From the NCBI GenBank assembly GCA_000690595.2, contig JHUT02000011.1, forward strand, positions 1 through 51,408: 51,408 bases of DNA. The letters run 5' to 3'. The notes below the pieces were generated by a model that saw only the letters and a program-made list of their open reading frames with translations, did no database searches and was not told where the DNA came from. Both the position numbers and the translations under genes were made by a program. Positions within the stretch are counted from its first letter, which is position 1. The number at the start of each line of letters is the position of its first letter. This stretch comes from Natrinema mahii (GTDB lineage Archaea > Halobacteriota > Halobacteria > Halobacteriales > Natrialbaceae). Of the stretch, positions 4,011-50,435 are shown one piece after another.

Positions 4011-5963
<1,953 letters not shown>

Positions 5964-6984: not shown

Positions 6985-7013
6985 AACCGTGTGAACGGTT
7001 GGCACATTATTAA
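6985..7013 (+). promoter_or_regulatory. Promoter and possible operator of mamA
   Basis: ATTATTAA at 7006-7013 is a TATA-like element upstream of the mamA ATG (7058). Just before it, AACCGT (6985-6990) and ACGGTT (6995-7000) form a six-base inverted repeat with a four-base spacer, a plausible activator or repressor site. The site is short and could be coincidental. Confidence 0.3.
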
Positions 7014-7057
7014 TCATTAGGTTTATGGTGGTCCCCCCAGTTTGTGGTGGTACGCAC

Positions 7058-7504: not shown

Positions 7505-7615
7505 GCCGCCCGATCACGTCTTCTCGGTTACCGCTCTCGTAACCACTGCGCCGGTGCTATCGTTCGGTAGCGACTGCCGTTCGATCGGTTCACCTCGAGC
7601 GAGTCGCGACCGCAA

Positions 7616-8050: not shown

Positions 8051-8263
8051 GCGCGTCGATACATCGGCCTGCCGAATAAGTCCACCCCTGAGTCCGGCGG
8101 GACGGGAGTTGACGCGGCCAGCACCCGTTCGGTCGCTCTCCGCGGGGTTCGAAGACCCGGCTCGCCCCGTCGGCGAGGGCGGACTCGAGCCGACGCGGCA
8201 GTGCGGCCGCTGGCAGCGTCGTTCGCGAAAGAAGCGGTGTGAATCGGCCGTCGTGGCTGCGTG

Positions 8264-8854: not shown

Positions 8855-8864
8855 TGTATTCACC

Positions 8865-8970
8865 CGCGGGCGTTTGCTGGTTCAATCCCGACCGGGGCCA
8901 AGCCCCGCGGATCACATCCCGACCTGTGACACGGCGTCGTGCAGGTGCCCGCTGATGCCCGCGAACCAGC
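8865..8970 (-). ncRNA. Structured 5' leader of rpl15e (possible cis-regulatory RNA)
   Basis: On the transcribed strand, GCTGGTTC (8970-8963) and GAACCAGC (8883-8876) form a perfect eight-base stem. It encloses two hairpins. The first is ACCTG-CACG with CGTG and CAGGT between 8946 and 8922. The second is CGGGGC-TTG-GCCCCG at 8907-8893. Together they make a three-way junction. A rival seven-base pairing, CGCGGGC (8963-8957) with GCCCGCG (8871-8865), reaches to 11 bases before the ATG and overlaps the first stem by one base. The layout resembles ribosomal-protein autoregulatory leaders, but no known family is recognised. Confidence 0.5.
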
Positions 8971-9110
8971 GAGTCTACCCACTCTTCCCGGCTCTCGAGT
9001 ATAAGCGCTTCGAACTCCGGGAACGGGCGTCGAAACGGTGATCGTCGCTCGAGAGAGCCTCGCGTCGCCGACCGGTCGCGTGTCGTGTCCGTCGATGTAG
9101 ATCCTAATTT

Positions 9111-9133
9111 GATATATCGGAATTTGATTTATA
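9111..9133 (-). promoter_or_regulatory. Likely promoter of rpl15e
   Basis: On the minus strand this AT-rich patch holds TATAAA (9133-9128) and GATATATC (9118-9111). Either would start RNA near 9088-9105 and give a leader of roughly 235-250 bases. No other AT-rich patch lies between here and the rpl15e start. The same patch could serve plus-strand transcription, but no gene follows on that strand. Confidence 0.45.
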
Positions 9134-9209
9134 GAGTGGCGCGTATCCGAGAAGAACCGCTGACGGCACTGCTCGGCTGGTTACGGCGGACCGTCCGCAG
9201 ACACTCAGG

Positions 9210-9470
9210 CTAGGCCGAACGGCGGTACCACCGCTGTCCGTCATCGAGGGGTTCGAGCGGCCTGAGTCGGTGGCCGTGGTCCGTTTCGGTGACTCCCGTC
9301 TCGACCTCGAAGCCGTCGTCGAGGGGCCGTTCCGGAAGCGATCGATGTGACGTGTCTGCTATCTCGGAGTCGCTCGCTGTTTTGGAGGCTTCTCGCGCCG
9401 GCTGGTGGCCACCCAGTCGGGTCGGAGATCGCTCGAGCCGACGACAACGAAAACAGATCGTTCGGCGGGG
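9210..9470 (-). pseudogene. Possible gene remnant between rpl15e and rio2
   Basis: A minus-strand frame about 85 codons long, ending at 9210-9212, has an acidic, halophile-like C-terminal half (for example DDGFEVETGVTETDHGH, ending GQRWYRRSA). Its N-terminal part carries a CFRC pair. It has no ATG, GTG or TTG start after the preceding in-frame stop, so it cannot be a complete gene as written. It may be the degraded end of a small gene. No family is recognised, and the rest of 8971-9523 shows nothing else except the rpl15e promoter. Confidence 0.2.
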
Positions 9471-9523
9471 CGATCAAATCACCGTGAATCGCGTTCTGGG
9501 GACGTATCGACCGGTATCCGTGC

Positions 9524-10432
9524 CTACGAGTCGATTTCGAGCGAGTCGAACTCGCCGGCTTCGATCTCGCGGGCGAGGTCGTCGGCCTCGAGGTCGTCGG
9601 GGACGTGCTGGGGGTACTTCCGGCGGAAGTAGCCCACGATGTTGGTCAGGTCTCGGCGGAGGAACTCGCCGGCGTTCTCGTGGTCGGTCGGGACCGCCTG
9701 GGGCCAGTCGAAGATCGTCACGCCGCCCTCGTCGACGAAGACGTTGTACTCGCTCATGTCCGCGTGGACGTAGCCCGTCTCGTAGGCCTCGGCCATCTCG
9801 GTGACGAGCAGTTCGAGGACGCCCAGTACCTGCTCGTCCTCGAGGCGGGTTCGGGAGAGTTCGACGCCGTCCATCTTCTCCATGACGATGGCATGGCGGT
9901 TCTGCCCGATGGGCTGGGGGACCGCGACGTCGGGGTAGAGTTCCTCGAGGATGTCGTACTCGCGCTCGGCGGCCTTCCGGGCGGTGTACATCCATGAGAC
10001 GTGGTCGTTGTCCGAGGTGTAGTCACGTTCCTTGTGGACCTCCCGGAAGTTCGTGTACCCCTCGCGGTGGTACTTCAGGGCCAGGGGCTTGTACGAGCGG
10101 ACCTCGTAGACGTCGCTTTCCTTGCCGACGCCGAGCGGCGAGCCGAACTCCGAGATCGTGTCCTGTTCGACCAACGCGCGCAAGGCGAGGGTGTCGTAGC
10201 CCTCGAACTGGAGGGTATAGCCCTCGTACTGGATCGTCTTTCGCTCGACCAGCCCGCGCTTGAGACAGCGCTCGAGGCGGTACTCGACCTCCTCGTCGGG
10301 CATATCGGCGAACTTCGGGAGCTTCTCCCGCTGGACCCACTCGGAGAAGCGCATCCCCTGCTCGACGCCCGAGAGGAGATAGAAGTCCTCGTCCTCGAGT
10401 TCCGGGAGCAACCCGGCGACGTTTCGCACCAT
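9524..10432 (-). CDS. rio2: Rio2 family serine/threonine protein kinase
   Basis: This 302-residue atypical kinase is conserved in archaea and eukaryotes and acts in maturation of the small ribosomal subunit. The N-terminal 90 residues form the Rio2-type winged helix (start MVRNVAGLLPELEDEDF). The kinase domain has the nucleotide loop GVGKESDVYEV, the catalytic loop HADMSEYNVF with its Asp and Asn, and the metal-binding IFDWPQ. Length and order are normal. It is transcribed alone on the minus strand. Confidence 0.95.
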   Translation of the reverse strand: MVRNVAGLLPELEDEDFYLLSGVEQGMRFSEWVQREKLPKFADMPDEEVEYRLERCLKRGLVERKTIQYEGYTLQFEGYDTLALRALVEQDTISEFGSPLGVGKESDVYEVRSYKPLALKYHREGYTNFREVHKERDYTSDNDHVSWMYTARKAAEREYDILEELYPDVAVPQPIGQNRHAIVMEKMDGVELSRTRLEDEQVLGVLELLVTEMAEAYETGYVHADMSEYNVFVDEGGVTIFDWPQAVPTDHENAGEFLRRDLTNIVGYFRRKYPQHVPDDLEADDLAREIEAGEFDSLEIDS

Positions 10433-10683
10433 AGGCGTGGATAGCCGGTGAGTACGTAAAAACGGCGTGACGAGCGATTCGACGGGACGTCGAACGAAGG
10501 CGGCGCTTGCCGTTCGTCACGATGCGGGCCGTTCGTGGCCTGCGACGCCGAATCCGTTAGTCCTCGACTGGCCGATCGGTCGTGATAAATCGTATAATGA
10601 TATGTGAATCGTCCATCGGTAGGGAAGTCGACGGTCCGCTCTCCACTCCGGCATACGAAAATCGTTGCTCGAGTCCGAGAGAC

Positions 10684-11205
10684 TCAGATCTCCAGTGTGT
10701 AAATGCAGGTCGGATACGAATCGTCCCCGAGTTCGTAGCTGCTGGTACCCGTTTTTTCGAACCCTCGGGCCTCGTAAAACCGCTTGCCGACGTCGTTGCC
10801 GGACAGGACCTCGAGTCGGAGCCGTTCGGTCTGATCCGGGAGCGTGCCGAGTCCTCGCTCGAGGAGAGCGGTCCCCACTCCTTGTCCCCAGTAATCCGGC
10901 TCGACGTAAATCGATTTTAACTCGGCGTCGTTCGTCTTCACGAACGGTTTTGTCACGGAAGACCCCCATCGGAAATCAGCGAACCCTCGGACGGTGTCAT
11001 CGTCGTCCACCGCGATCAAAATCCCCTCACGATTGTCCCGTAATCGTTCGAACCACTGATCAACCTCCTCACTGGTCGGATCGACTGTTTGTGCCTGTAA
11101 TACGTGCTCTGGAAGCAGTCCCGTGTAGGCTTCACGCCACGACAATCCGTGTGCTCTAATCAAGCCCCTGATTTCCGCTCGAGATTCTAGGTTTCTAATA
11201 TCCAT
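10684..11205 (-). CDS. GNAT family N-acetyltransferase
   Basis: This 173-residue GCN5-type acetyltransferase has the acetyl-CoA binding motif A as YVEPDYWGQGVGTALLERG at about residues 101-119 and a C-terminal FYEARGFEKTG strand. The substrate cannot be inferred. It stands alone, divergent from the lipoate ligase. The AT-rich spacer 11206-11483 includes several TATA-like stretches (about 11220-11310) that could serve both genes. Confidence 0.85.
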   Translation of the reverse strand: MDIRNLESRAEIRGLIRAHGLSWREAYTGLLPEHVLQAQTVDPTSEEVDQWFERLRDNREGILIAVDDDDTVRGFADFRWGSSVTKPFVKTNDAELKSIYVEPDYWGQGVGTALLERGLGTLPDQTERLRLEVLSGNDVGKRFYEARGFEKTGTSSYELGDDSYPTCIYTLEI

Positions 11206-11483
11206 GGGACAATCTACTATAACCTATTAAAAGAATGCTTCCACTGAACGGACACTAGTTAAAAGGATCCGTCTAACTATGTTTTATTTACTATTTATAG
11301 TTATGGGTTTATATCGCTTCGCTGCGAGAGATGAAGCCCGTTCGACACCGCTGTCAGAGTAACTGGGAGACCGTGTTGGTATTGGTCACGGATACAACTC
11401 CACTCGAAGTCCGTATTCGGGACTGAAACCGCAACTCACGATTCGTCGAAATACCTAATTCACTCGCCACTGTCCGACTGTGT

Positions 11484-12320
11484 ATGAGCGACCTCGCCGA
11501 TCGGGAGTGGCGGCTGATCCGGGACGAGCCTCGCGACGGAGCGACGCAGATGGCACTCGAGGAAGTCGCCGCGCGAACGGCGCTCGAGGATGACGTTCGA
11601 ACCGTTCGCACGTATTCGTGGGAGCCGAGCATGCTCTCGCTTGGGTATCGACAGGACGCCGACACTGTCGACTGGGACTTCTGCGAGCGGGAGGGGATCG
11701 ACGTTACCCGGCGACAGACCGGCGGCGGCGGGATCTATCACGACCGGCACGCCGACATTTCCTACACGATCGTCGCGCCCGCCGACGAGGTCCCGGGGAA
11801 CCTGATGGACTGCTACGAACTGTTCTGCGAGCCGATCCTCGCGGCCTTCGACCGACTGGGCGTCGACGCCGACTTCGCCGCGGCCGAACAGGACGCGATC
11901 TACCAGCCTTCGTGCTATCTGCGCGATATCAACCCGGCACACGACATCGTCGCGCCGGCGGACGCGGGCGACGACGCCGAAAAGATAAGCGGCAATGCCC
12001 AGTACCGACAGCGGGACGTCGTCATCCAGCACGGCTCGATCAGTTACGCTCTCGAGCCCCGGGCCCACGTCGGCGTCTTCGATACCGCCCTCGAGGAATC
12101 GACGTTCGCCGACCGGGTAACGAGCGTCCGCGACGAGGCGGGGGTCGACCGCGAGGCGGCCGTCGACGCGATCGCGGGCGCGCTGGGCGACTGGTGCGAC
12201 GCCGAGGAGTCGTCCTGGCGCGAGAGCGAACTCGAGGCCGCTCGTGGCCTCGCCGCCCGGAAGTTCGGGAGCGACGCGTGGGTTCGGGATCGGGAGGTGC
12301 TCGAGGCGGGCGAACAGTGA
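11484..12320 (+). CDS. lplA: Lipoate-protein ligase A family protein
   Basis: This 278-residue protein of the biotin/lipoate ligase fold attaches lipoate to acyltransferase (E2) proteins. The family motif RRQTGGGGIYHD (about 75-86) and the catalytic lysine region AEKISGNAQYR (about 166-176) with the following HGSISY are present. The N-terminal EWRLIRDEP and the MALEE helix are also typical. Haloarchaea carry several members of this group, so this one may be an octanoyl/lipoyl relay enzyme instead of a true ligase. The start follows AT-rich sequence and is accepted because no extension is needed. Confidence 0.85.
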   Translation: MSDLADREWRLIRDEPRDGATQMALEEVAARTALEDDVRTVRTYSWEPSMLSLGYRQDADTVDWDFCEREGIDVTRRQTGGGGIYHDRHADISYTIVAPADEVPGNLMDCYELFCEPILAAFDRLGVDADFAAAEQDAIYQPSCYLRDINPAHDIVAPADAGDDAEKISGNAQYRQRDVVIQHGSISYALEPRAHVGVFDTALEESTFADRVTSVRDEAGVDREAAVDAIAGALGDWCDAEESSWRESELEAARGLAARKFGSDAWVRDREVLEAGEQ

Positions 12321-27873: not shown

Positions 27874-28163
27874 CTTCCTTCCTCGTCGAAGTACAGCAGA
27901 CACCGAATAGCCCGCCATCTTGCGATTTTCGGCAACTCGAGACGGCCGAAAATTTGGTGTGGAACAAGGATCTTGTTGGGGGCCCGCGCCGTCTAGCGAA
28001 TTCCATGCTGGTGATGAGTTCGTATCTGTACGTACCGTGAGTACCTTGTCCGAGAATTGCGGTAGAGTCGGACAGGAGATCGTGAAGTAGCGTTCAATAC
28101 AGAGTGCGGACTGAACACTTCAACTCCCGAAAACACTTACCAGTTGTATCGAAAAGCAGACTC

Positions 28164-28883
28164 ATGAACCGGCGAACACTTCTTACTTCAATCTCTGTGG
28201 GCGCTGCTACAGTCGCTGGCTGTACTGGGGGAGACGAGAACGACGAAACTGGAAGGAAATATAAGCCGTGTAACCACATGGTCCTCGAGTATTGGATTTT
28301 GCCGGAGGATGTCAAGGCAGAGGTTGATACTGCATTCGATGAGGGCCAGTACGAGAGCGACGAGGAGTTGCTTTGGCAGCAGATTGCTGGGTCTGACGTA
28401 CAGGCACTCCAGCGAGGAGGGAAGGTCTTTGAGAAGGGACCGGACGGGTATGAGCCGCGACAGGAAATAACGTTCTATTCTCCACAGGTGGACGTAAACG
28501 ATGGCGTTCATACCCTTCAGTTTGAGGAGACGACGCCTCAGTATGATTCGATGAAACATCTTACTGTGCAACGTGGGCCTGAAGTACCGCGGAATATTTC
28601 GATTGCTGTCAAAAATACAGAGGGAACAGTTATTGAAGAGACGGATCTCACTATCAAAGATCGAAATAGTGAACCAGAGGTGCCGGTCGCTAGCGAATTT
28701 GGGACGTATGTGGTTGAGGTTACGGTTGAAGACTGGGGGACGGTGACTGAGAAATTGAGACTTCATTCTGGTGTTGGCGTTATGGTGTTGGGTATTAATG
28801 AAAGCGATGAAGGAGAGTCCCCATTTTCCGTATTTATAGCAAAAGACCCATCAGACGGTGAGTCCCTCTGTCCCTGGGAAGTA
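28164..28883 (+). CDS. Putative lipoprotein, AT-richer than neighbours
   Basis: This 240-residue protein has an N-terminal signal with basic MNRRT, a hydrophobic stretch and the lipobox VAGC at residues 16-19, followed by an acidic Gly-Asp-Glu linker, as in haloarchaeal Tat lipoproteins. A single soluble domain follows with alternating strands but no recognised motif; two further cysteines are near the ends. The start at 28164 places the signal peptide first. The stop codon follows at 28884-28886. Base composition is clearly AT-richer than the flanking genes, and it lies just downstream of a tRNA gene, so horizontal acquisition is likely (inference). Confidence 0.7.
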
Positions 28884-28886
28884 TAA

Positions 28887-38515: not shown

Positions 38516-39805
38516 TCAGGATCGGCTGCCGGTCGCCTCGAACGACGTCGGCGACCGGCCGTCGAACGCGAGCCGGATCCGTTCGGAATCGGCGTTGTCA
38601 CCTCTGAACTTCGAGATCGACAGGATGTGGTCGGCCCCATCCCCCGCCAGCCCCGACTCGAGTTCGAAGACCGCGTCGGCGGCGTGCAGCGTCGCCGTCC
38701 GATTCGCCGGCACCGCAGGCCCCTCGAGACAGTGCAACAGGCCGACGCTCTCGGTCGCGACCAAGCGCTCTTTGAGCCCGTCGAGAAAGGAGACGTACGT
38801 CGCCCGGTCGGCGGTCTCCATCGCGTTCGCCGGATCGACGACGAGCGTCGACGACGCCGGCAGCGTCTCGAGCAACGCCGCCGCGTCGTCGAGCCGGGTC
38901 TCGCCACCGAGACGGCGCACCGTCGGGTTGCCGGTCTCGAGCGCCGCGGCCTCGAGCGCCCGCGTTACGTTCGCCGTCGACCGTTCGGTCGACAGATAGA
39001 GCGTCCCGCGGACGGCAGTCGTCCCGTAGAGCAACTGCTCCGACTGACTGGCGGGCTCCGCGACCACCGCGACGAGCGATCCCGGAGCCAGTCCGCCGCC
39101 GAGCGCCCGATCGAGCGCGTCGATCCCCGTCGGCAGCAGATCCTCGTCGTACGCCACCGGCGTCCGATCCGGGGCCAGTCGTCGCTCTATCGTCTGCGCG
39201 ATCCCGTCGTAGGCATCCCGCGTCGCCTCGTCGGTCAGCGGTGCCGACGCCTCGGGAACCCGCCCCAGAACCGGAATCCGCGTCCACGAGTCGACCGCCT
39301 CCGGCACGCGGTCACACTTGTTCAGCACCGCGCCGAGTATCGGTACCTCGAGCCGGCGCGCCATCTCGATCGTCGTCTCGGCGGCCGAGAGACTGCGTTC
39401 CGTCTCCGTCGTGACCACGATCACCCCGTCGGCGGCCGACAGCGGTTCGACGACGTCGGGGCCCGCACCCGACGGACAGTCCACGAACGTTCGCTCGACC
39501 GCCCCCTCGAGTCGATCGAACGCCGCCTCGAAGTCGACCCGGTCGGACGGCTCCGGTGCTGCGACCAGCCCCGCGCCGTCCGCCCGCGGACTCGACTGGA
39601 CGACCGTCTCGGCGACGGCCGACTCGGACTCGAGCGCCGCGAGCGTCGGCTCTCGATCGACGCCACCGGCCACGTGGAGGTTCGGCAGCTGGCGATCGGC
39701 GTCGACCGCGATCGCCGTCGTCGTCTCCCGGCCGACCGCCTCCGCGAGCCCGATCGTCGTCACCGTCTTTCCACAGCCGCCTTTCGCTCCTGCGATAGCG
39801 ATCAT
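38516..39805 (-). CDS. MinD-like ATPase fused to a RecA/KaiC-like domain
   Basis: This 429-residue protein joins two P-loop-fold domains. The first (about 1-225) is MinD-like with GAKGGCGKT, DADRQLPNL, FVDCPSGAGPD and VVTTETERSLSAA. The second (about 228-429) starts DLLPTGIDALDRALGGGLAPGS, the usual entry to a RecA/KaiC-like domain, but where the second P-loop should be it reads VAVVAEPASQSEQLL, without GK[ST]. A DPANAM segment stands at the Walker B place. So the second domain may bind a partner, not hydrolyse ATP. I believe it corresponds to haloarchaeal DUF7125. Confidence 0.7.
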   Translation of the reverse strand: MIAIAGAKGGCGKTVTTIGLAEAVGRETTTAIAVDADRQLPNLHVAGGVDREPTLAALESESAVAETVVQSSPRADGAGLVAAPEPSDRVDFEAAFDRLEGAVERTFVDCPSGAGPDVVEPLSAADGVIVVTTETERSLSAAETTIEMARRLEVPILGAVLNKCDRVPEAVDSWTRIPVLGRVPEASAPLTDEATRDAYDGIAQTIERRLAPDRTPVAYDEDLLPTGIDALDRALGGGLAPGSLVAVVAEPASQSEQLLYGTTAVRGTLYLSTERSTANVTRALEAAALETGNPTVRRLGGETRLDDAAALLETLPASSTLVVDPANAMETADRATYVSFLDGLKERLVATESVGLLHCLEGPAVPANRTATLHAADAVFELESGLAGDGADHILSISKFRGDNADSERIRLAFDGRSPTSFEATGSRS

Positions 39806-39994
39806 AGCGACAGTCCTGCGGCTTCCTTTTTGAACGTCAGCCCGTCAGCCTCGTCGGTGCTGGCTCGTCTTCGGTAGCCCTCTCAGTGTCCTCGGTACTT
39901 TCTCTCACGGTTGGTTAACATAGAATCGTCTCGCGAAACAGCCCTCGGACTAGATAAAATATTTACATACTGGGTTTAATTTTGTATCCGTAAT

Positions 39995-41203
39995 ATGGGT
40001 TGGAGATCGAATCGAACTCGCCGGACCTGGCTGGCGAGTTGTGCCAGTACCGTTGCCGGCGTTTCGGTCCTCGCTGGCTGTACGAGCGACAGTTCCGAAA
40101 CGAACGAGGACGAGCCCAAGGACGACGACGCGCTTGCAGCCGACACGTGGCCCATGTACGGTGTCGACCCACAGAACACGGGCTATCATCCCACGGCGAC
40201 CGGCCCGACTAGTGAGGATGCTACAGCCGAATTATTATTTGAATTAAATGGATCAGTTAGCGATAGTCCCGCTGTTACTGGTGACACTCTCTACGCCGCT
40301 GCTGACAACCAATTATATGCGATTAATACAGAGACTGGAGAAAACGAATGGCGGTCCGACTTCTCTAATATACGTGGTACCTACCCAGCCATCTCTGATA
40401 ACCGCATATATGTCGGAATGAATGAGGGGATTGCTACAGTTAATCGAAATAACGGAAATCTCATTTGGCAAAATAGCGTTGGTATCAGTAATGTTTGTCC
40501 AGTAGTTGATAGCGGCGCGGTTATTGGTTCTGAAAACCTTTTGTTATATCAGTTCGATATTGACAACGGTGAAGAGACAATAATTCATGATTTGAGAGAT
40601 GATAATCTTGGGCGGCCATATACAAGTATCCCGGCCTATGACGACGGGAGTGTATATTTTGCGGGAGAACATGTTCTACACTCAGTAAATGCCAAAAATA
40701 GTTCTGTAGAGTGGACTTTTGAAAACCCAGAAGGAAAAGCTATGGGGGAATGTAATCCAGCAACTGATGGTGAAAACATCTATATAAGCGGTGCGGACAA
40801 ACGACTGTACGCGATTGATACTGAAGATGGCACACAAAAGTGGTCAATCAAAACAAAAAGTGAAACCCCTCAAAACCCTTCTCTCGCAAATGGGATTCTA
40901 TACGTAGTCGCGAGTGATAGTGTTCTGTCAGGTGGTGGCAGTTGGTTACTCGCTATTGACACTAAAAAGGAAGAGGTGATTTGGGAAGATAGTTTGCAAT
41001 CTAATATAAATTATAAGCCAGTTATTTCCAATAGTAGTGTATACTACGCGAACAGCAGACAGGTATTGGCATATGATAGGGAAACAGGAGACAGACGGTG
41101 GAAAATTGACGAATTCAATGAACCAATCGCTGGACCTCCAACTATCTCTGATGATCATGCCTTTATATCTCTTAAGTCAGGAGAGATCTATTTGATAACG
41201 TAG
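39995..41203 (+). CDS. PQQ-propeller lipoprotein, mosaic composition
   Basis: This 402-residue protein has a twin-arginine-like start (RRTWLAS), a hydrophobic stretch and the lipobox LAGC at about residues 26-29, then an Asp/Glu-rich linker and a beta-propeller of repeated PQQ-type blades, recognisable from repeats such as DNQLYAINTETGENEW, NNGNLIWQ, KRLYAIDTEDGTQKW and RQVLAYDRETGDRRW. Such proteins are surface-anchored binding scaffolds. Codons up to about 40,205 (residue 70) are GC-rich and host-like; after this, composition is markedly AT-rich. The gene is convergent with the pilus gene at 41222 across 18 bases. Confidence 0.85.
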   Translation: MGWRSNRTRRTWLASCASTVAGVSVLAGCTSDSSETNEDEPKDDDALAADTWPMYGVDPQNTGYHPTATGPTSEDATAELLFELNGSVSDSPAVTGDTLYAAADNQLYAINTETGENEWRSDFSNIRGTYPAISDNRIYVGMNEGIATVNRNNGNLIWQNSVGISNVCPVVDSGAVIGSENLLLYQFDIDNGEETIIHDLRDDNLGRPYTSIPAYDDGSVYFAGEHVLHSVNAKNSSVEWTFENPEGKAMGECNPATDGENIYISGADKRLYAIDTEDGTQKWSIKTKSETPQNPSLANGILYVVASDSVLSGGGSWLLAIDTKKEEVIWEDSLQSNINYKPVISNSSVYYANSRQVLAYDRETGDRRWKIDEFNEPIAGPPTISDDHAFISLKSGEIYLIT

Positions 41204-43150
41204 TGGGCCCAAATTTTGAGTCTATTTCACTGGAAGTGGTTGGGTAGCGTCATCTGATATGCACCCTTGTCCATTATTCATGTCATATTTTGTGCCAGCA
41301 TTTTTCCAACCTTCTGAACAATATTCTCGAGGTGAATTTATATTTCTATAGCGCCACATGTCTCCAACACCCGGCGAACCCTTGGTTACCAATTGTGGAC
41401 TTGGAACAATGACTGGCACTACAAGTTCATTCTCAAACGAGATCGGTTCGACAGAACCAACTGTAAGCTCGTCTTGTGCTGCCCGCGTAGGTGTCTCGAT
41501 TGTTGTCTCAGTATCTTGCCGGACATACGTTAATCCAGTAGCGCTCGTTGGGTCACCGTCGGTAGCTCGCACCTCGAACCGGGCGTATTCGCCCTGAACA
41601 TCAACATAATACGCGTCAAGTTGGAGGTAGAATAAAGGTGGCCACGGCATGAGAGGGAATCCGGGATAGCCGATTCCATCGAAATATCCGGCACCCATTG
41701 GCGCATGTTCCGTACTGTTGCTGTCGTCGATCGAGAGCGTTTCACCACCGTCCGGACGCACCGCTGGAACGTCGGTTCGATTGACGGGTTCCAAGGCGAG
41801 GTAGGTCGGTGATGCTTCCACTTGATAGTTCACGTCCTCCACCAACGGCGAACTCTCAAGCGACCCCTGCGTCTCTTCGGGTCGAGTTTCGGGATCCATC
41901 ATCCGATCGACGAAGTCCATCGGTCCGCCGAGAAGATCGTTACTTGTGTCGAGAAGTCCACCGAGGAGGTCATTGAGTATAGCGCTACTCTCACCAAGTG
42001 TTGTGTCGTGCCATCTGCTTACTTTGTCGATGTTATCGTACGTATTCTCGAAGTACTGTTTGCGAACTTCCGCTCGAAGGAGATCTGCAGTGTTGGCGTA
42101 TGGTTCGGACGCGTTTTGATACACTAGTTCGAGTTCGACATCTCTTACGTTGCTCTCGGCGTTCCTGAGTGGACTCGGCCGTTCGACCATATTCCAGAGG
42201 TCCGTTCGATGTGGCTCGACACGCGTGAGGACTTCGTAATGGGTATGGTTGAGTTCGGAAAGCGCCCATTCATAGAGTTTATCCTCATTTCGTGGGCTGA
42301 CATCGATACCGGGATCCGCTGAGTAGGGAATCTCCTCTTCGAAGTCACGTTCCGTGATTATCGAAGTACTCGAAGATTCAAGCGCTCGCTCAAGTTCCCG
42401 TTCTTGGGCGTGGAAAGTAGTCGAGTCGAGATTGAAGGTTTCACTGACCGCTTTCGTCTTGACACCCTCAAAGTTTCCGACGAACTCATAATCTTCGTCC
42501 CAGGAGTCTGTTTGGAACGGGGATTCGATTCCACGACTTTCCCGCTCCACATCGATGTCATCAGAGACGAGATCGGTACTGATCGTATAGCTCGCGCTGT
42601 ATGTGATATTGTCTTTCCAATTCCAGTCCGTATGAGGAGATCGGTTCTCGTCTTTATGTTCCCACTCAGCACTAACTCCGATAGAGTTCTCATATTCAAC
42701 CTCAATTTTGGCGATATTACGATCATCAAAACTTGTATCCTGATCTTCTGTGAGGACATCAATCGAAACGTCCGCATCGGCTTGAGATGTACTAGCAAAA
42801 TATGTCGTATTATAAGGTCCAGACCAATTCCCCGGGTCTTGTGCCCATTCAGTAGGAGAAGAGGGGGTCGGTAAACTCCGATGCTTGTGTGGTCCAGACT
42901 CTCTCGTAGAGACCTCAATATCATATACCTGTTCTATAATATCATTAATATCGTTTTCTAGCCTAACATCCTCATATAGCTGAGCTAGCCCTTTCAGTGG
43001 GTTATTATCGTCTGTAATTGATCCAATATCTCCAGCTACGTCTTGATTATTCAAATTATTTGAGAAATAATGGCTCAGATATTGATTGCTGAAACGATTG
43101 CTTTCTGCAAGAGAGTTATTAAACTCCGCCTCTATCTGCGACATATCCAT
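40205..43150. other. AT-rich block that starts and ends inside two convergent genes
   Basis: Composition changes from high to low GC at about 40,205 inside the lipoprotein gene, and back at about 43,150 inside the pilus gene. The block includes the 3' five-sixths of the first and the 3' two-thirds of the second, plus their 18-base junction. It is not uniform: 40.2-41.55 and 42.35-43.15 kb are the most AT-rich, while 41.6-42.3 is intermediate. Replacement of a segment by homologous recombination or gene conversion would give such a mosaic. Confidence 0.55.
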
Positions 43151-44275
43151 CCCAGCCGCCATCTGCATATACCCCAGATCGGCGAACGGATGGGCCTGAA
43201 TCTCGACGTCGGTTTCGACGTTGTCCTCGAGCATCGTCAGTGCAATCTCCTGAACGGTCGGCGGATCGGGTAGCTCACCGTCTTGATCGATCAGATCGGC
43301 GTTACAGAGGTCGGATTCGTTGGCGAGGGAACTGTTGTTCGGGAGGAAGTCATCGGTCTCGACGTCGCCCGCACTCGAGGCGAGATCGCCGGCCATACAC
43401 AGCGTCGGTTGGAGCATGGCGCGGTCCTTGTAGGGGTCGGTCGTGCCGAAGGTGCGCTCCTGCAGGCCGAAGATGGCGTCGTTGACCATGACCTCGGTGT
43501 GGTCGTTGGGCGTCAGATTGTGAAACGCCCGCTGGCCGCCGGAGAGGCGGTCGTAGTAGGCCTTCCCCCAGGTGTAGGGATACAGTCGGGCAGCCGTATA
43601 TCGACCGAGGCCGTCGTACTCGTCGGTTTCGAAAAAGCCGGTGTTGAGCTGGCGCTGGAACTCGTCGGTTCGGTCCTTGAGCTGGTAGAGCGGGGTCGCG
43701 ACCGAGACGGTCAGATCGCGGCGTTCGGTGACCGGTTCATCGTCGCTTACGTTGCCGGTGAGTTCGACGTCCGCGACCTCGACGGTGAGGACGCCGGTGT
43801 CGGGTCGCTCGAGCGAGACGCGGTCGATCGCGGCCGAGAGATCGTCGCTGTCGTTCCAGTCGATGCGGTCGATAGCGACGCCGGCGGCGGTGTCGTGTCC
43901 GACCTGCTGGGACGTGGTCGCGAACGAGTCGGCGACCTCTCGGTAGACGAGGAGCTTGAGGTACTGGTCGAAGACGGCCTCGTCGTCGTCGAACGCGTCT
44001 TCGACGGTCGGACTCGCGCCGTCGGTCGACGTGACGGGCGCGCTGGCGGCCGTCTCGGTCGCCTGGAGGACGGATCGCCGCAGTTCGGAGACGGCGACGG
44101 ATTCGGCGCGGTCGATGGCCACTGCTTGTTCGGTCTCGACCTCGGGTGTGTCTCTGGAGCCGAGGACGCCAACGATGGCGATGCTGCTGATCAACAGGAG
44201 CACTGCGATCAGGGCGAACGGAATCCGGGCGCGGTCGTCTGCTGCGATCGAAACTGTGTGTGGGCGGTCGGTCAT
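41222..44275 (-). CDS. Large pilus-locus protein (DUF7286-like)
   Basis: This 1017-residue protein starts MTDRPHTVSIAADDRARIPFA and has one N-terminal membrane helix (about 19-39) followed by a very long extracytoplasmic part with many Asn and Asp. I believe it is DUF7286, the largest protein of haloarchaeal tad-type pilus loci. The first 375 residues are GC-rich; the rest lie in the AT-rich block and are more variable, suggesting a surface-exposed diversifying part. It starts one base after the stop of the DUF7284-like gene. It may be a tip or anchor component. Confidence 0.7.
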   Translation of the reverse strand: MTDRPHTVSIAADDRARIPFALIAVLLLISSIAIVGVLGSRDTPEVETEQAVAIDRAESVAVSELRRSVLQATETAASAPVTSTDGASPTVEDAFDDDEAVFDQYLKLLVYREVADSFATTSQQVGHDTAAGVAIDRIDWNDSDDLSAAIDRVSLERPDTGVLTVEVADVELTGNVSDDEPVTERRDLTVSVATPLYQLKDRTDEFQRQLNTGFFETDEYDGLGRYTAARLYPYTWGKAYYDRLSGGQRAFHNLTPNDHTEVMVNDAIFGLQERTFGTTDPYKDRAMLQPTLCMAGDLASSAGDVETDDFLPNNSSLANESDLCNADLIDQDGELPDPPTVQEIALTMLEDNVETDVEIQAHPFADLGYMQMAAGMDMSQIEAEFNNSLAESNRFSNQYLSHYFSNNLNNQDVAGDIGSITDDNNPLKGLAQLYEDVRLENDINDIIEQVYDIEVSTRESGPHKHRSLPTPSSPTEWAQDPGNWSGPYNTTYFASTSQADADVSIDVLTEDQDTSFDDRNIAKIEVEYENSIGVSAEWEHKDENRSPHTDWNWKDNITYSASYTISTDLVSDDIDVERESRGIESPFQTDSWDEDYEFVGNFEGVKTKAVSETFNLDSTTFHAQERELERALESSSTSIITERDFEEEIPYSADPGIDVSPRNEDKLYEWALSELNHTHYEVLTRVEPHRTDLWNMVERPSPLRNAESNVRDVELELVYQNASEPYANTADLLRAEVRKQYFENTYDNIDKVSRWHDTTLGESSAILNDLLGGLLDTSNDLLGGPMDFVDRMMDPETRPEETQGSLESSPLVEDVNYQVEASPTYLALEPVNRTDVPAVRPDGGETLSIDDSNSTEHAPMGAGYFDGIGYPGFPLMPWPPLFYLQLDAYYVDVQGEYARFEVRATDGDPTSATGLTYVRQDTETTIETPTRAAQDELTVGSVEPISFENELVVPVIVPSPQLVTKGSPGVGDMWRYRNINSPREYCSEGWKNAGTKYDMNNGQGCISDDATQPLPVK

Positions 44276-44276
44276 G

Positions 44277-45326
44277 TTACCAGGTCTGAATCGTGATGGT
44301 TACGTCGGCGGTCGATGTTTCGTCGGCGAGTAGCGCCGCGATCCGCTCGTCGCGGGCGGCGCCGCTGTGCTCGTTCTCGATCCTCGTGATTTCCTCGTCG
44401 AGCGCGTCTTGCAGGTCCGCGGCGAGCCACTGTCCGAGCCCGTCTCGGCCGAACCGGTCCGCGTCGGCGAGCCCGCGGCGAACCTGTGCGTTCGCCTCGA
44501 GGGCGTCCGCGTCCTCGCGTTTGAGCGGGCCGTGGTGGGCCGGGTTCGTCGTCCCCGTGAACTCGTACTCGAGCGGCGCCACCATGCGCTGGTACTGGAA
44601 GACGGCGAGGTCGTGGGACAGTCCCTGACTCTCGAGAGCCAGTTGCGTCTCCTCGGGCGGGAAGTAGCCGCGGACGATCGCGTCCCCGAGGACCATTCCC
44701 GCGGCCTCGAAGCGGGCCGAGTCGGAGTCCGCGACGAGGTCGGTTCGATCCCCAAGTCGATCGTTCCACTCGGTCCCGCCCTCGAGGTACGCGCGTTCGA
44801 TCTCGTCGCCGTCGACGGCTGGCAGGCCGCTCGAGGCGGTCAGGGTCACGCTCGAGACGTCCGCGGTCGGCGGCGGCCGTTCGCCGGCGGTCGCCGTCCC
44901 GTTGATCGAGGCGTTCTCGTAGGGCTCCCACTCGGCGACGGCGTAGAACTCGCGGTCGGCGCCGATTAACGCGCTCCCGACGGCGGCGTCGACGGCGGCT
45001 TCGAACTCGTCGCCTGTGGGCCGGATCGGGGTCCCGTCGATGCGGGCGTTCGCGACGGCCGCGTCCGCGAGCAGGCCGGTCGCGGACCCGTACTCGGTCC
45101 GATGGTACTCGCCGGGGCGTTCGGCGACCGGATCGGCGTCGGCGAGGCTGTACTGGACGCTGACGGTCGTCGCGCCGAGAACCGCAGCTGTGTGGTCGGC
45201 CCGATCGCCGTCGGGGTCGGGTGCGGTTCCGTACAGGTGCGTACCGAGCAACAGGACGCTCGCGCTGACGAGCAACAATGCCATCGCGACGTCCATGACC
45301 GTACTCACCGCTCGGTCCGATCTCAT
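44277..45326 (-). CDS. Pilin-like protein (DUF7284-like)
   Basis: This 349-residue protein starts MRSDRAVSTVMDVAMALLL, a short basic leader followed by a hydrophobic helix (to about residue 27), like an archaeal class III pilin signal cleaved by PibD after Arg. The body has long helices and strands with halophile acidity. The ATG at 45326 overlaps the upstream stop by four bases (ATGA); a GTG three codons earlier is possible. I believe this is DUF7284. It is probably a minor pilin-like component. Confidence 0.7.
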   Translation of the reverse strand: MRSDRAVSTVMDVAMALLLVSASVLLLGTHLYGTAPDPDGDRADHTAAVLGATTVSVQYSLADADPVAERPGEYHRTEYGSATGLLADAAVANARIDGTPIRPTGDEFEAAVDAAVGSALIGADREFYAVAEWEPYENASINGTATAGERPPPTADVSSVTLTASSGLPAVDGDEIERAYLEGGTEWNDRLGDRTDLVADSDSARFEAAGMVLGDAIVRGYFPPEETQLALESQGLSHDLAVFQYQRMVAPLEYEFTGTTNPAHHGPLKREDADALEANAQVRRGLADADRFGRDGLGQWLAADLQDALDEEITRIENEHSGAARDERIAALLADETSTADVTITIQTW

Positions 45327-45799
45327 CCGTTCCACACCCCCACGAGCAGCGTCCCGCGGCGCACGTCGCCGGGAGCCGTCGCGACGGCGATCGAGCGTTC
45401 GGCCACGCCGGCCTCATCGGGCGGGCCGTCGAGTTCTTCCTCATCGATCGCGGTCGGACTCGACGTTCCATCGGTTCCGAACACGGCGGTTCCGACGACG
45501 CTCTCGCGGCCGTCGGCGACGATCGTGAGCCGGACGTAGACGTTCCGACCGTGTGGCAAGGACTCGGTCTCGATTCCGTCCGCGAGGTCGCCGTCGTGGG
45601 CGCGAACGACGCCGTCGCTCTCGAGGTCGTCGGCGATCTGCTCGAGCGCCGTCGTCTCGGTGGTTCGATCGGTCGTGCCGGGAAGCGTGTCGGTGAGATA
45701 GAGCCCGTAGAGACCGATCCCGGCGACGAGCGCCGAGACGGCGACGAGTGCGGCGAGGGGGTCGGTTTGCCCGCGACTAGACGTCGACGAGTGTAACAT
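45323..45799 (-). CDS. Small pilin-like protein (DUF7285-like)
   Basis: This 158-residue protein has a short polar leader ending SRGQTDP, then a hydrophobic helix (about 14-34, LAALVAVSALVAGIGLY) and a soluble domain. The RGQ-x-DP-hydrophobic pattern resembles pseudopilin processing sites. I believe it is DUF7285. Its start overlaps the end of the DUF7283-like gene by 23 bases, and its stop overlaps the next start by four, so translation is coupled. Confidence 0.7.
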   Translation of the reverse strand: MLHSSTSSRGQTDPLAALVAVSALVAGIGLYGLYLTDTLPGTTDRTTETTALEQIADDLESDGVVRAHDGDLADGIETESLPHGRNVYVRLTIVADGRESVVGTAVFGTDGTSSPTAIDEEELDGPPDEAGVAERSIAVATAPGDVRRGTLLVGVWNG

Positions 45800-46670
45800 A
45801 GAACGTATCAGCCTCCGTATCGCGACTCACGTAGCCTCGGTCGTCGACAGCGGTCGTCTCGAGCGTCCGGCCACCGGGCGGGCAGATCGGGACGGTCTCG
45901 TCCCCTCGGTCGGCGCGGACGGTTGCGGTACAGAGCTCGGTACCGCCGGCTTCGATCCGCACGTCGATCGGGAACGACATCGCGGGCGCTCCCTCGAACG
46001 CGTCGTGGGTGATCGTCTCGGTTCTCCCTGTGGGCGTTCCGGTGACTGATTCACGGATCCGACCGCGATCGTCGCTGCCATCCGCGAGCAGCCGCAGCCC
46101 GGTTTCAGCGGTCGATTCGTACTCGACGGTCACCTCGTGGGTCTGGTCACCGGGCACGCGCTCGATATCGACGGCTGCACTGACGGTCGGAAGCGGCCTC
46201 GTCGCGACGGTCCGGGTCCGTAACGGCCCGTTCGCGGTCCGCCACTCGCCGGTGTTCGTCTCGTATGCCGATTCGACGTCCGCGAGAAAGGCGTCGATCG
46301 CGCTCCGGTTCGGGTCCTCGACGGCCGCCGCGTACTCGTCCGCGACGGCGCGGCCGGCTGAGACGTTCTCGAGCCGTTCGTTCCCCATGACAGGCACCAC
46401 GTGGCCGTAGGTGAGCGTCGCTCGCGTCGTGCCGTGGTCGTTTCGCATCACGACGGTTCGGCCGGTGAACTTGATCGCGGTCGCGTCGTGGTCGTAGGTC
46501 GACTGTGCCTCGTAGGGACTGCCGGCCGTCTCCTCGATGGCGTTTGCCGCTCGGTTCGCGTCCGGTGGCGGGCCGGTCGGCAGACCGAGGGCGACGGTGC
46601 CGACGGCGGCGCTGACGATTGAAACGGCGAGCCAGACGTACCAGCCGTCGATCGGTGCTTCCAGATCCAT
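45777..46670 (-). CDS. Pilus-locus membrane-anchored protein (DUF7283-like)
   Basis: This 297-residue protein begins MDLEAPIDGWYVWLAVSIV at 46670, with one membrane helix (about 12-32) near the N-terminus and a large beta-rich extracytoplasmic domain with two cysteines (ELCTATV, VPICPPGG) that could form a disulfide. I believe it is DUF7283. The chosen start is supported by a TATA box 23-30 bases upstream, which would give a leaderless RNA. Longer frames upstream are out of the family pattern. Confidence 0.7.
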   Translation of the reverse strand: MDLEAPIDGWYVWLAVSIVSAAVGTVALGLPTGPPPDANRAANAIEETAGSPYEAQSTYDHDATAIKFTGRTVVMRNDHGTTRATLTYGHVVPVMGNERLENVSAGRAVADEYAAAVEDPNRSAIDAFLADVESAYETNTGEWRTANGPLRTRTVATRPLPTVSAAVDIERVPGDQTHEVTVEYESTAETGLRLLADGSDDRGRIRESVTGTPTGRTETITHDAFEGAPAMSFPIDVRIEAGGTELCTATVRADRGDETVPICPPGGRTLETTAVDDRGYVSRDTEADTFYVTLVDV

Positions 46671-46692
46671 ACCCCCGCTGGCCGCGTGTTCG

Positions 46693-46700
46693 TATTTAAA
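46693..46700 (-). promoter_or_regulatory. Internal promoter of the pilus locus (before the DUF7283-like gene)
   Basis: TTTAAATA on the minus strand lies 23-30 bases before the ATG at 46670, in the 95-base gap after the TadC-like gene. The spacing is right for a leaderless transcript, so the pilin-like genes could be expressed apart from the assembly motor. Confidence 0.55.
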
Positions 46701-46765
46701 CCTCAGTCGATCGAGAACCGTACGCTCGGCCACGTTCAGAGCCGTAAGACAGCGGGACCGAGCGA

Positions 46766-48478
46766 TCAGAGGACGGCACCGATGACGGCCACCGTCACGA
46801 CGTACAGCACCATCGCGGAGACGAGCGTCCGACCCACGTGATAGCCGACGAGAGCGCGATCGATCCCGTGACGCAGCGCGATCGAGAGCGGCGTGATGAT
46901 GACACACAGCAGTAGCAGGTAGGCCCCGATGACGATCCCCAACGACTCCGTGGGGAAGGCAGCCGCGTCGACCTCGCCCGACGCGACGAGCGCGTCGCTG
47001 GCCATCATGTCTGCCATGCCGACGGTGGCACCGGCGACCAGCGGTGCGAAATAGGCCGCGGTGTTGTCGAGCGTGCCCGTTACCTGCTCTAAGTTCCGCT
47101 TGGTCTCGGCCTCGACGGTCTCGAGTTCCTCGAGGTGGTCGGCCATGGAGACGATGGCGCGACCCGCGGGTTTCCCCTCGTCGGCCGCGATCGCGAGCAA
47201 CGCGGCGGTCCCGCGAGCGCGCGGGCTGGGCACGTGTCGGAGCGCGCCGTACTCGCCGAGAAAAGCCGCCTGGACGCCGGTCTGGAGCCGCCGCTGGAGG
47301 CCGGCCGCGCGCTCGAAGACGGCACCGGTTTCGCCGGGGACCCGGTCGCCGGCGAGTTCGACGGCGGACTCGACGGACTCCCCTTCGGCGACCTGCTGGC
47401 CGACGACGTACAGCGCGTCGGTGAGGTGGGCCTCGATGTCGCGGACGTGGTGTCTGACCGCGAGGATCGGCCGGTAGGTAACGAGCAGCGCGGTACCGAG
47501 CCCGAGCCCGACGGCGGCGACGGGTGCGAGGTGTGCGGGGCCGACCGCGACGAGGACGGGGTAGCTCCCGCCGCCGGCGGCCACGCCCCAGAGCGGCCGC
47601 AGTCGGAGGCGGTCGGGGAGCGAGGGGTGGTCGTGCCCGATCGTCGGCGGCGGAAAGGCGACCGGCCGGCGGACGAGCAGCCAGAGGCTGGCCACGACGA
47701 GCGCACCGGGTAACACGACGTTGTACACGAGGACGACGAGCCAGACGTTGACGGCGTAGCCGACCATCGGCACCGTCGGGACGAGCGAGACTAGCGCGAG
47801 CGGGAGCATGATCCCGAAGGCGAACAGGCCGGTCGCGGGCGCCCGGATGGCCGACGTAAACTCGGCCATCTGGCTGCGCGTCCCGTCGAGGACGGCCGAC
47901 AGCGCGCGATCGAGCGTCCGCAACCGTTCGGCTTCCGGGGCGTCCTGGGCGGTCGCAAGCAGGTGTGTCGACCGCCGCAATGCCGGGAACCACTCGGCCC
48001 ACTCCTCGGCGAACGCGAGCAGGCCGGTTCCGGGGGTCCCCATCGCGCGATCGATGTGCGCGTCGAGGCTCCGCGACAGCGGTCCCGAGCCGGTGTCGGC
48101 CGCGAACCGGACCGCGCTCTCGAGGGCGGGCTGGACCTGCATGCGCAACACCGCCCGGCCGATCAGGTTCGGCGTGTCGCCGAGGGCCTCGGTCCGGCGA
48201 AACGCCGCCTGCAGGTGCGGGAGCGAGTGAACCGTGTGGATCGCCGCGAGCGGGGACACGATGACGAAAAACGCCACGAACGGGAGCGGCGCCGGCGTCA
48301 GCAACAGCCCCAGCGGGAGGACGGCGGCGACGACTCCGGCCCCGTACCCCGCTCTGACGACCGTCTCGGCGTCGTGGGGCGAGCCGGTAAACGACAGCGA
48401 CTCCGCGAGGCCGTCGCTGGCCTCGACCTCGGCCGGATACAGTGCCGCCAGCGCGCGAACGACGGGGGCGGACATCAT
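46766..48478 (-). CDS. TadC/GspF-like pilus assembly membrane protein
   Basis: This 570-residue integral membrane protein forms the inner-membrane platform of type IV pili. It has two related halves, each with membrane helices flanking a helical cytoplasmic GspF domain. Hydrophobic segments are near 45-85 (as a pair), 215-270, 300-345 and 490-565, and the helical region around 120-200 reads like a T2SSF domain. It follows the ATPase gene by seven bases, the usual order of archaeal pilB-pilC pairs. Confidence 0.85.
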   Translation of the reverse strand: MMSAPVVRALAALYPAEVEASDGLAESLSFTGSPHDAETVVRAGYGAGVVAAVLPLGLLLTPAPLPFVAFFVIVSPLAAIHTVHSLPHLQAAFRRTEALGDTPNLIGRAVLRMQVQPALESAVRFAADTGSGPLSRSLDAHIDRAMGTPGTGLLAFAEEWAEWFPALRRSTHLLATAQDAPEAERLRTLDRALSAVLDGTRSQMAEFTSAIRAPATGLFAFGIMLPLALVSLVPTVPMVGYAVNVWLVVLVYNVVLPGALVVASLWLLVRRPVAFPPPTIGHDHPSLPDRLRLRPLWGVAAGGGSYPVLVAVGPAHLAPVAAVGLGLGTALLVTYRPILAVRHHVRDIEAHLTDALYVVGQQVAEGESVESAVELAGDRVPGETGAVFERAAGLQRRLQTGVQAAFLGEYGALRHVPSPRARGTAALLAIAADEGKPAGRAIVSMADHLEELETVEAETKRNLEQVTGTLDNTAAYFAPLVAGATVGMADMMASDALVASGEVDAAAFPTESLGIVIGAYLLLLCVIITPLSIALRHGIDRALVGYHVGRTLVSAMVLYVVTVAVIGAVL

Positions 48479-48485
48479 CTCGAGA

Positions 48486-50435
48486 TCACTCTCGCTCGCC
48501 GACCCGGTCGGCGTAGGCCCGCGTGACCGCGCGGGGACTCGTTCGGCCCTCGCCGGCGAGCCGCGAGAGCAGTTCCGTCCGGGCCGCGATCGCCCGGCGC
48601 ACGTCGGCGTAGGACTCGGTCGGGCCGGCGAGCCGGTCGACCAGCCGGCTCTCGCCGCGGTCGATCCGGCCGGTCGCGACCGCGCGCTCGCCCTCGAGGT
48701 CGTACAGCGGTTCGAACCGCGGGGTGTCGCCGTCGTCGATCACCTCCTCGATGGCGGCGAGGCGGCGGGTTCGGCCCTCGGGGGTCCGGTGGGTCTGGAC
48801 GGTCACGATCAGATCCGTCGCGGCGAACGAAGAGGGGTCGACGCCGAGGTCGGTGACGACCCGTTCGGCGACATCGTCGGCCCCGTCGCCGTGGATCGTG
48901 CCGAGGACGGCGTTGGCGTTGGCCCCGACGCGCATCGCCTCGTAGAGGACTCCCGCCTCCTCGCCGCGGATCTCGCCGACGACGAGCGCGCCGTCGCCCA
49001 GCCGGAGGGCGGTCCTGAGCGCCTCGTCGGGAGCGATTTCGGGCCCGTCACCAGTACCGGTTCTGAGCGCCTGTACGTCACGACCCACCGACTGTAACGT
49101 ATCGACGGGCAACTCCGGCGTGTCCTCGAGCAGGACCGTCCGCGTCGCCGGCGGAAGTTCGTACAACAGCGTGCCCAGCAACGTCGTCTTGCCGGCACCT
49201 CTCGTGCCGGCGATCAGCGCGGCGGCGTTTCGCTCGACGGCCACCGAGAGCAGCGCCGCGGCCGCCGCCGGCACCGTTCCGTTCGCGACCAGCGCGGGGA
49301 GGGTGAACCGCTCGTCCGGTCGCTCTCGGAACGCGAACGCGATCCCGTCGGCGACCGGCTCGGTGACGCCGGCCACCCGGATCCCGGTCCCGTTCTCGAG
49401 CGCGGCCGTCGCGTCGACGGTCGGGCTCGCTCGGGAGAAGGCCCGACCGCTGGTGCGTCGAACCCGGGAGGCAAGCGCCTGTGCGCCCGCTCGCGTGAGC
49501 GAGACGTTCGTCGGCATCGATTCCCCGTCGACGACCACGCGGATCGGGTTCGCCGAGACCGGCGAGGTGACGAAGACGTCGGTCACGCGCGGGTCGGCGA
49601 ATAGGTCCTCGAGGACGCCGTAGCCGGCCGTATGCTTCGTGAGAACGCTCGCCAACTGGGTGCTGGCCGGCTCCCCGCTCGCGCGTTCGATCGCCCGCGA
49701 TCCCGCCCGATCCCCCTCGACGCGTCCTTCGGCGATGGCCTCGTACCCCTCGAGGAGGAGCCGGCGATCGCTCTCGGAGAGGGTCGTGTCGACGATCTCG
49801 AGGGCGTACTGCGGCGTCTCTCCGGGTCGATCGTAGATCCGTGCCTCGCTGCCGGTCGGCAGCGAGCGCGCGTCGACGAGCCGTGTCCCCTCGTCGATCG
49901 TTCGGTCGACGAAGTAATGGCCGATCGTGAGGCCAACGGTCGCGGTCAGGGCCGACTCGTAGCTCTCGGCGCGCTCGGCGGCCGCGACGAGGCCGGATTC
50001 GACGCCGATGTCGGCGATCGGACCGACTCGGGTCCGCAGCTCCTCGCCGACGGCGATCGGGTCCCGAGCGGCGGCCGAGGCCAGCCGGTCGTCGCGATCG
50101 CCCAGCAGCGCGACGAACCGGCCGGCAGAGCCAAGCAGGGCGACGCCACGGTCGGCGTACCGGCGCTCGAGGCCGTTCGATCGCACGACGACCGCGCTCG
50201 CTTCGCGATCGGTGAGCGCCTCGATCGCGGTCCGGCGACAGGGGACTGCGGACTCGAGGCGGCCGCCACAGTCGCTCGCGTCGATCCGGAGTGTCTCCGC
50301 GTCGACGGCCGTTTGGCACGTACACTGGGCGTCCGGCTCGTCGCCCCAGCTATCGATGCGGCTTCCGAGATCGAGCGACGTGCCGCCGACGCGATCGACG
50401 ATCGAGCGGAGCCGCCCGGACGGGGTCTGTGACAT
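48486..50435 (-). CDS. Type II/IV secretion-type pilus assembly ATPase (PilB/TadA-like)
   Basis: This 649-residue ATPase has Walker A GTRGAGKT (410-417), the Asp box LLEDTPELP, Walker B ALVVGEIRGEE (484-494) and the His box GTIHGD. The first 270 residues are a distinct N-terminal domain in which C38, C40, C56 and C66 could form a metal site. It powers pilus polymerisation with the TadC-like protein. The ATG at 50435 is supported by a TATA box 25 bases upstream. It is the motor of the locus. Confidence 0.9.
   Translation of the reverse strand: MSQTPSGRLRSIVDRVGGTSLDLGSRIDSWGDEPDAQCTCQTAVDAETLRIDASDCGGRLESAVPCRRTAIEALTDREASAVVVRSNGLERRYADRGVALLGSAGRFVALLGDRDDRLASAAARDPIAVGEELRTRVGPIADIGVESGLVAAAERAESYESALTATVGLTIGHYFVDRTIDEGTRLVDARSLPTGSEARIYDRPGETPQYALEIVDTTLSESDRRLLLEGYEAIAEGRVEGDRAGSRAIERASGEPASTQLASVLTKHTAGYGVLEDLFADPRVTDVFVTSPVSANPIRVVVDGESMPTNVSLTRAGAQALASRVRRTSGRAFSRASPTVDATAALENGTGIRVAGVTEPVADGIAFAFRERPDERFTLPALVANGTVPAAAAALLSVAVERNAAALIAGTRGAGKTTLLGTLLYELPPATRTVLLEDTPELPVDTLQSVGRDVQALRTGTGDGPEIAPDEALRTALRLGDGALVVGEIRGEEAGVLYEAMRVGANANAVLGTIHGDGADDVAERVVTDLGVDPSSFAATDLIVTVQTHRTPEGRTRRLAAIEEVIDDGDTPRFEPLYDLEGERAVATGRIDRGESRLVDRLAGPTESYADVRRAIAARTELLSRLAGEGRTSPRAVTRAYADRVGERE

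Follow-up and report, generated by a model that had tools for sequence, protein, structure and literature searches.

Two convergent genes in the haloarchaeal genus Natrinema (Halobacteria, Natrialbaceae) very probably form a hypervariable surface cassette that moves between lineages of the genus through homologous recombination. The genes, one for a lipoprotein and one for a protein of the DUF7286 family, lie in a stretch of 51,408 nucleotides (hereafter the window) whose genome is called G000 in the comparisons below. The finding that carries this reading is a second species, G026, in which a block of the window type sits between flanks of the N. thermotolerans type. Our comparison was made at the species level, with one genome per species, and set eight other Natrinema species against the window; of the genomes named below, G006 is N. 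thermotolerans DSM 11552 and G025 is N. versiforme JCM 10478.

Gene layout and base composition

The lipoprotein gene (39995-41203, + strand, 402 aa) and the DUF7286 gene (41222-44275, - strand, 1017 aa) converge on a junction of 18 bases (41204-41221) that has the same length in G026 and is a 4-base overlap in G004 and G006. A scan for bacterial-type terminators, whose coverage does not extend to archaeal signals, found no terminator-like site in this junction. The conserved 5′ coding end of the lipoprotein gene (codons 1-70, 39995-40204, + strand) encodes a signal and linker and is the putative left homology arm; within it, RTRRTWLASCASTVAGVSVLAGC reads as a probable Tat-type signal with a lipobox cysteine, the front having the form RTRRTWL...LAGC. 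These codons are 84-95% identical at the nucleotide level among four close species, between a diverged promoter on one side and the diverged propeller on the other. The promoter region (39830-39990) is outside the exchanged block yet strongly diverged, with 56-76% identity to G026 and G006. The remainder of the gene (codons 71-402, 40205-41203, + strand) is set apart by its PQQ_2 match, identity and GC3 as a hypervariable, AT-rich beta-propeller part, 45-52% identical in nucleotides to seven of the eight congeners and 95% identical to G026. The protein scores 117.8 bits against Pfam PQQ_2 (PF13360; cut-off 27.6), which places it among the PQQ-type beta-propellers, and a model built from three sequences (pLDDT 75) has its first propeller strands at residue 78 and is closest to BamB among PDB structures, suggesting a BamB-like fold. 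What it shares with BamB is the fold alone: its score against TIGR03300 (105.8 bits) lies below the equivalog cut-off of 285, and it is an archaeal protein with a Tat-type signal and a DUF7286 partner.

With 343.5 bits against a cut-off of 27, the 1017-aa protein is a member of DUF7286 (PF23957), a Pfam family without an assigned function; the match holds strongly over residues 13-385 and breaks up in a hypervariable middle. A profile search returned no relative with a solved structure, and the AlphaFold model, made from three sequences, has a pLDDT of 29. The gene divides into three parts, all on the - strand: a conserved 5′ coding end (codons 1-366, 43177-44275) that encodes an N-terminal membrane helix, is 92-98% identical among four close species and would be the right homology arm; the hypervariable, AT-rich middle (about codons 367-525, 42701-43176, delimited by identity and GC3), which is 95% identical to G026 and 49-58% identical to other species and is least conserved at codons 400-460; and a moderately variable C-terminal part (codons 526-1017, 41222-42700, delimited by identity and dS) that is exchanged with the block, being 97% identical to G026 and 75-81% identical to G004 and G006 (dS 1.05-1.65, dN/dS about 0.1). 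Neither protein matches an Ig-domain Pfam family, and the PADLOC models of anti-phage defence gave no match.

Upstream of the DUF7286 gene lies a conserved cluster of five genes on the same strand (44277-50435, -): DUF7284 (44277-45335), DUF7285 (45323-45799), DUF7283 (45777-46802), a 570-aa membrane protein (46766-48478) that matched no family and may, from its position alone, be TadC-like, and a TadA-like ATPase (48486-50435) with a T2SSE match (PF00437; 67.1 bits, cut-off 24.9), whose best NCBIfam match, the TadA family TIGR03819, stays below its cut-off (137 bits against 373). A preliminary description of this DNA had called the 1017-aa product a pilus protein, which fits the nearby TadA-like gene, but the protein itself is DUF7286 and pilus is therefore a label taken from context. 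The left neighbour, a MinD/ParA-like ATPase with a DUF7125 domain (38516-39805, - strand; PF23442 and CbiA), forms a conserved flank, with 90-95% amino acid identity in G004, G006 and G026.

GC content is about 70% on both sides of the block and 35-59% within 40.2-43.2 kb. As the preliminary description had noticed, the drop and the recovery fall inside the two convergent genes, at about codon 70 of the lipoprotein (40.2 kb) and about codon 375 of DUF7286 (43.15-43.3 kb), and the gene coordinates bear out that the block takes in both 3′ ends and the 18-base junction. The contrast is stronger in GC3, which is 83-90% in neighbouring genes versus 34% in lipoprotein codons 73-402; in DUF7286 it is 31% in codons 385-525 and 51% in codons 526-1017. 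Because 41.4-42.6 kb is nearer 50-59% GC, the composition of the block is not uniform. The same dip occurs in the same two places in all nine Natrinema species with a syntenic locus and is therefore not due to chance. Nor can an AT-rich block present in all nine be one recent foreign arrival; at this locus low GC persists as a feature of the alleles and does not mark a single foreign import. Elsewhere in the window, another low-GC (49%) island at 28104-28886 holds a 260-aa lipoprotein-like ORF with a VAGC motif near its N-terminus and no Pfam match; there the alignment collapses against G026 and G004, and G026 and G006 stay 96% identical.

Mosaic ancestry of the block

The locus is found in the same order in 9 of 29 Natrinema genomes, and one more (G020) has a distant version. 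DUF7286 and DUF7284 are missing from 19 of the 29, so that the locus is patchily present in the genus. In 100-base steps, the window mostly shares 85-99% identity with G004 and G006 outside the block, intergenic gaps excepted, and this falls to 36-60% at 40.2-41.3 kb and in most steps of 42.7-43.1 kb, with about 80% between; identity to G026 is 88-100% through the block, above the level of the flanks. The identity plot that the preliminary description had proposed thus gives, when run across species, a sharp collapse in both genes between well-conserved flanks, with different blocks in different species. Averaged by part, the window and G026 are 95.2% identical in the propeller, 95.2% in the DUF7286 middle and 97.1% in the DUF7286 C-terminal part, against 90-92% in the flanks, and G026 and G006 are 96.8% identical in the left flank, 98.3% in the DUF7286 N-terminal part and 94.4% in the right flank, against 49.3% in the propeller, 55.5% in the DUF7286 middle and 77.4% in the C-terminal part.

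Informative sites among four genomes were sorted into a flank type (window and G004 against G026 and G006) and a block type (window and G026 against G004 and G006), with the first 12 kb of the window left out because they align poorly among these genomes. The ratio of flank-type to block-type sites is 962:77 at 13-40 kb, 14:476 at 40-43 kb and 198:20 at 44-51 kb. On the left the change falls between a flank-type site at 40,183 and a block-type site at 40,223, and on the right between a block-type site at 43,177 and a flank-type site at 43,201. Both switch points fall at the inner edge of the conserved 5′ coding ends and agree with the boundaries of about 40.2 and 43.15 kb first read from base composition. 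The left switch is assigned to the inner edge of the conserved lipoprotein front because the G026 promoter and most of the front still follow G006, all four informative sites at 40,005-40,183 showing the flank grouping. G026 is a mosaic of a window-type block and N. thermotolerans-type flanks. At the far end of the window, positions 1-12000 have uneven GC and are poorly aligned or rearranged among G000, G004, G006 and G026 (1-4 kb, 9-13 kb).

Between G000 and G026, the flank segments (MinD-like gene, DUF7286 front, DUF7284, DUF7285, membrane-protein gene) have dS values of 0.17-0.28 and the block has 0.10-0.14, and the confidence intervals of the DUF7286 C-terminal part (0.07-0.14) and N-terminal part (0.16-0.30) do not overlap. 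As block dS is about half of flank dS, this copy moved after the lineages split. Between G026 and G006, flank dS is 0.04-0.19, and block dS reaches 1.6 or saturation. AU tests rejected the flank trees on the lipoprotein, DUF7286-middle and DUF7286-C data and the block trees on the flank data (p below 0.001); with flank and block trees that differ and alleles common to several lineages, the locus belongs with the haloarchaeal surface loci diversified by recombination. The lipoprotein, DUF7286-middle and DUF7286-C trees also disagree with one another, which indicates that the block often moves in pieces. No positive selection was detected in the recent pair (G000-G026), whose dN/dS is 0.13-0.26 in the block, and this low ratio in a recently shared block implies that the variety arises by shuffling old alleles and not by rapid new change. 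Synonymous divergence between most alleles is saturated, which marks them clearly as old.

Recurrence, pairing and rival explanations

Three independent species pairs (G000/G004, G025/G014 and G018/G007) collapse at the same places as the G026 case: DUF7284 and the DUF7286 front are 88-94% identical, but the DUF7286 middle reaches 55-57% and the propeller 50-68%. In genus g43, G109 and G110 are 94-99% identical around the gene pair and in most of it and have two main patches at 38-49%, the first, about 0.4 kb long, lying across both 3′ ends and the second, about 0.5 kb long, within the DUF7286 middle; the patch cores have 28-45% GC in most steps, and the unreplaced front of the propeller has 58-70% GC and its replaced tail 37-44%. 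The patch between G083 and G085 (genus g37) is in the lipoprotein alone, and the pair G129/G132 of genus g5 has no identity collapse. Because patches differ among pairs, tract length varies and exchange of the whole 3 kb is one case among several. The original suggestion that the surface parts of both proteins switch at once holds for the whole block of G026 and for the G109/G110 patch over both 3′ ends, but exchange is often segmental. In G109/G110, low GC tracks the replaced patches and not the protein fold, a contrast that fits two accounts of the AT-richness: the reading that alleles are drawn from a low-GC pool remains, and it is possible that stretches too diverged to pair escape GC-raising recombination and drift to AT.

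A convergent propeller lipoprotein gene lies directly downstream of DUF7286 in at least eight genera of the family (g1, g5, g6, g8, g37, g40, g42 and g43), with spacers that range, where measured, from a small overlap to about 220 bases; the convergent pair is ancient. DUF7286 occurs without the lipoprotein, and without a GC dip, in g7, g9, G125 and one copy each of G032, G135 and G070. The unpaired copies of G032 (contig 8, L120) and G135 (contig 4, L161), which are of another genus and have a second, paired copy in the same genome, are about 55% identical to the DUF7286 of the window and look like an extra locus, possibly transferred. In G129 and G132 (L155, L158), tandem propeller lipoprotein genes, both AT-rich, stand beside one DUF7286 and may include a spare allele. 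Within Natrinema, propeller and DUF7286-middle distances are correlated when the DUF7286 N-terminal part is controlled for (r 0.71, p 0.002), also without the recombinant (r 0.50, p 0.02), and they are correlated over 26 paired loci (r 0.57); in genus g5 (6 genomes), the partial correlation with the propeller is not significant for the DUF7286 middle (p 0.25) but is significant for the C-terminal part (p 0.009). These correlations are consistent with coupled change or with simple physical linkage.

Two alternatives start from the age and the composition of the alleles. If an old balanced polymorphism predated the species, lineage sorting and recombination in the ancestral population could have distributed the alleles without recent transfer; the saturated dS of most alleles agrees with this, and part of the low block dS could arise if synonymous sites in low-GC codons changed more slowly. 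However, the G000-G026 block dS of 0.10-0.14 against 0.17-0.28 in the flanks, with the intervals of the C- and N-terminal parts apart, makes pure lineage sorting unlikely. There is a small chance that the signal is one of composition only, arising from a need for AT-rich codons or a local mutational bias that lowers GC without import, and the AT-rich block of all nine species does mean that low GC alone is not foreign import. Against this, GC3 is low, which goes beyond amino acid composition alone, GC differs between the unreplaced and replaced parts of the G109/G110 propeller, DUF7286 loci without the lipoprotein have no dip, and the mosaic is left unexplained.

The remaining alternatives concern how the outer parts came to differ. 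The propeller and the DUF7286 middle are the regions expected to be exposed, as would suit fast evolution in place under diversifying selection, but the G026 block is 95-97% identical to the window and differs at as many as half of its positions from G006, the sister of G026 in the flanks, the boundaries are abrupt and dN/dS is low; we give this explanation almost no weight, and its simple form is excluded by the mosaic pattern, the dS values and the AU tests. A conserved 5′ end with a variable 3′ part may recall pilE/pilS, where silent copies elsewhere in the genome feed antigenic variation. Such a mechanism is highly improbable here: in the genome of the window (99.67% complete) the block DNA matches itself alone, the best other propeller proteins are about 30% identical, and no silent donor copies of that type were found. 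It is scarcely credible that a mobile element or genomic-island insertion brought the block, despite its low GC and sharp edges, given that both reading frames run through the edges, gene order is unchanged, inverted repeats are absent, direct repeats are short and weak only, and phage, plasmid and viral-contig collections contain no relatives. Homologous exchange is the reading we prefer, with the qualifications that exchange is seen between species, each represented by one genome, that the trees of the three block parts differ and that the recent pair carries no sign of positive selection.

Proposed mechanism and related systems

In the mechanism that we propose, convergence would place the variable 3′ parts back to back over about 3 kb, with the conserved 5′ ends as outer borders. 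Incoming DNA would pair on the left with the conserved lipoprotein front (about 200 bp) and on the right with the conserved DUF7286 front (about 1.1 kb) and the upstream operon, and exchange between these arms would swap the propeller and the outer part of DUF7286, leaving the host its export signal, lipid anchor, membrane helix, promoters and pilus-type machinery; smaller internal tracts would also be exchanged. Since conserved fronts flank the variable region, homologous exchange could proceed without a special enzyme, and exchange through the conserved 5′ coding ends would maintain the hypervariable surface pair. Frequent DNA exchange and recombination are documented in haloarchaea (PMC5867893 and references there). 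Both proteins are probably displayed on the surface, where the variable parts of the propeller and DUF7286 may touch each other and where viruses or cell-cell recognition may select for many alleles; comparison with other surface loci of haloarchaea suggests that the likely driver is virus attachment or cell recognition (PMC4535781, PMC5867893).

Surface variation by recombination is already well known in haloarchaea and bacteria. In Neisseria pilE/pilS and Borrelia vlsE, a surface gene with a conserved front has a variable rear that is changed by recombination with donor copies in the same genome. The window locus has the same pattern of front and rear, but donor copies were not found in its own genome; the pilin cassettes of Pseudomonas aeruginosa are likewise not known to have silent copies. 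In these cassettes (pilA with tfpO, tfpW, tfpY or tfpZ), as in the window locus, an allelic surface gene changes with a neighbouring partner (PMC11841053), and the allelic surface filament is tied to phage sensitivity (PMC11841053). There the accessory gene follows the pilin gene and the accessory genes of different groups may be unrelated (PMC11841053), whereas at the window locus two convergent genes, both of them homologous between alleles, change in their outer halves alone. VARTIG of the Thermococcales (PMC8416519) is also an archaeal surface-type protein with a conserved front, a hypervariable C-terminal region and interspecies exchange. VARTIG proteins have Ig domains and draw variants from downstream small genes (PMC8416519); the window locus, which combines a beta-propeller lipoprotein with DUF7286, has no downstream variant genes, no Ig-domain match and constant gene content, and is not a VARTIG module. 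The cell-wall genomic island GI1 of Haloquadratum walsbyi shares with it the diversification of haloarchaeal surface genes by homologous recombination, proposed there to limit viral infection (PMC4535781), but GI1 spans tens of kilobases with varying gene content and mobile elements, whereas the window locus spans 3 kb with constant gene content. A convergent two-gene layout with conserved fronts as homology arms, by which a single tract can alter both surface proteins and leave anchors and promoters native, was not found in the literature searched, and a survey of archaeal type IV pili (PMC4858521) names neither a propeller nor a PQQ protein in its main text.

More tentatively, and with the odds somewhat against it, convergence itself may be selected: the propeller and DUF7286 could be a matched specificity pair that bind through their variable parts, such that one pair of crossovers would transfer the set at a recognition or virus-receptor locus. 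If so, such an archaeal locus would change type in one step. For DUF7286 and its propeller partner, two families whose functions have been unknown or vague, the locus suggests a role that can be tested, as a matched and variable pair at the cell surface. It also offers a defined place to ask what drives archaeal surface diversity.
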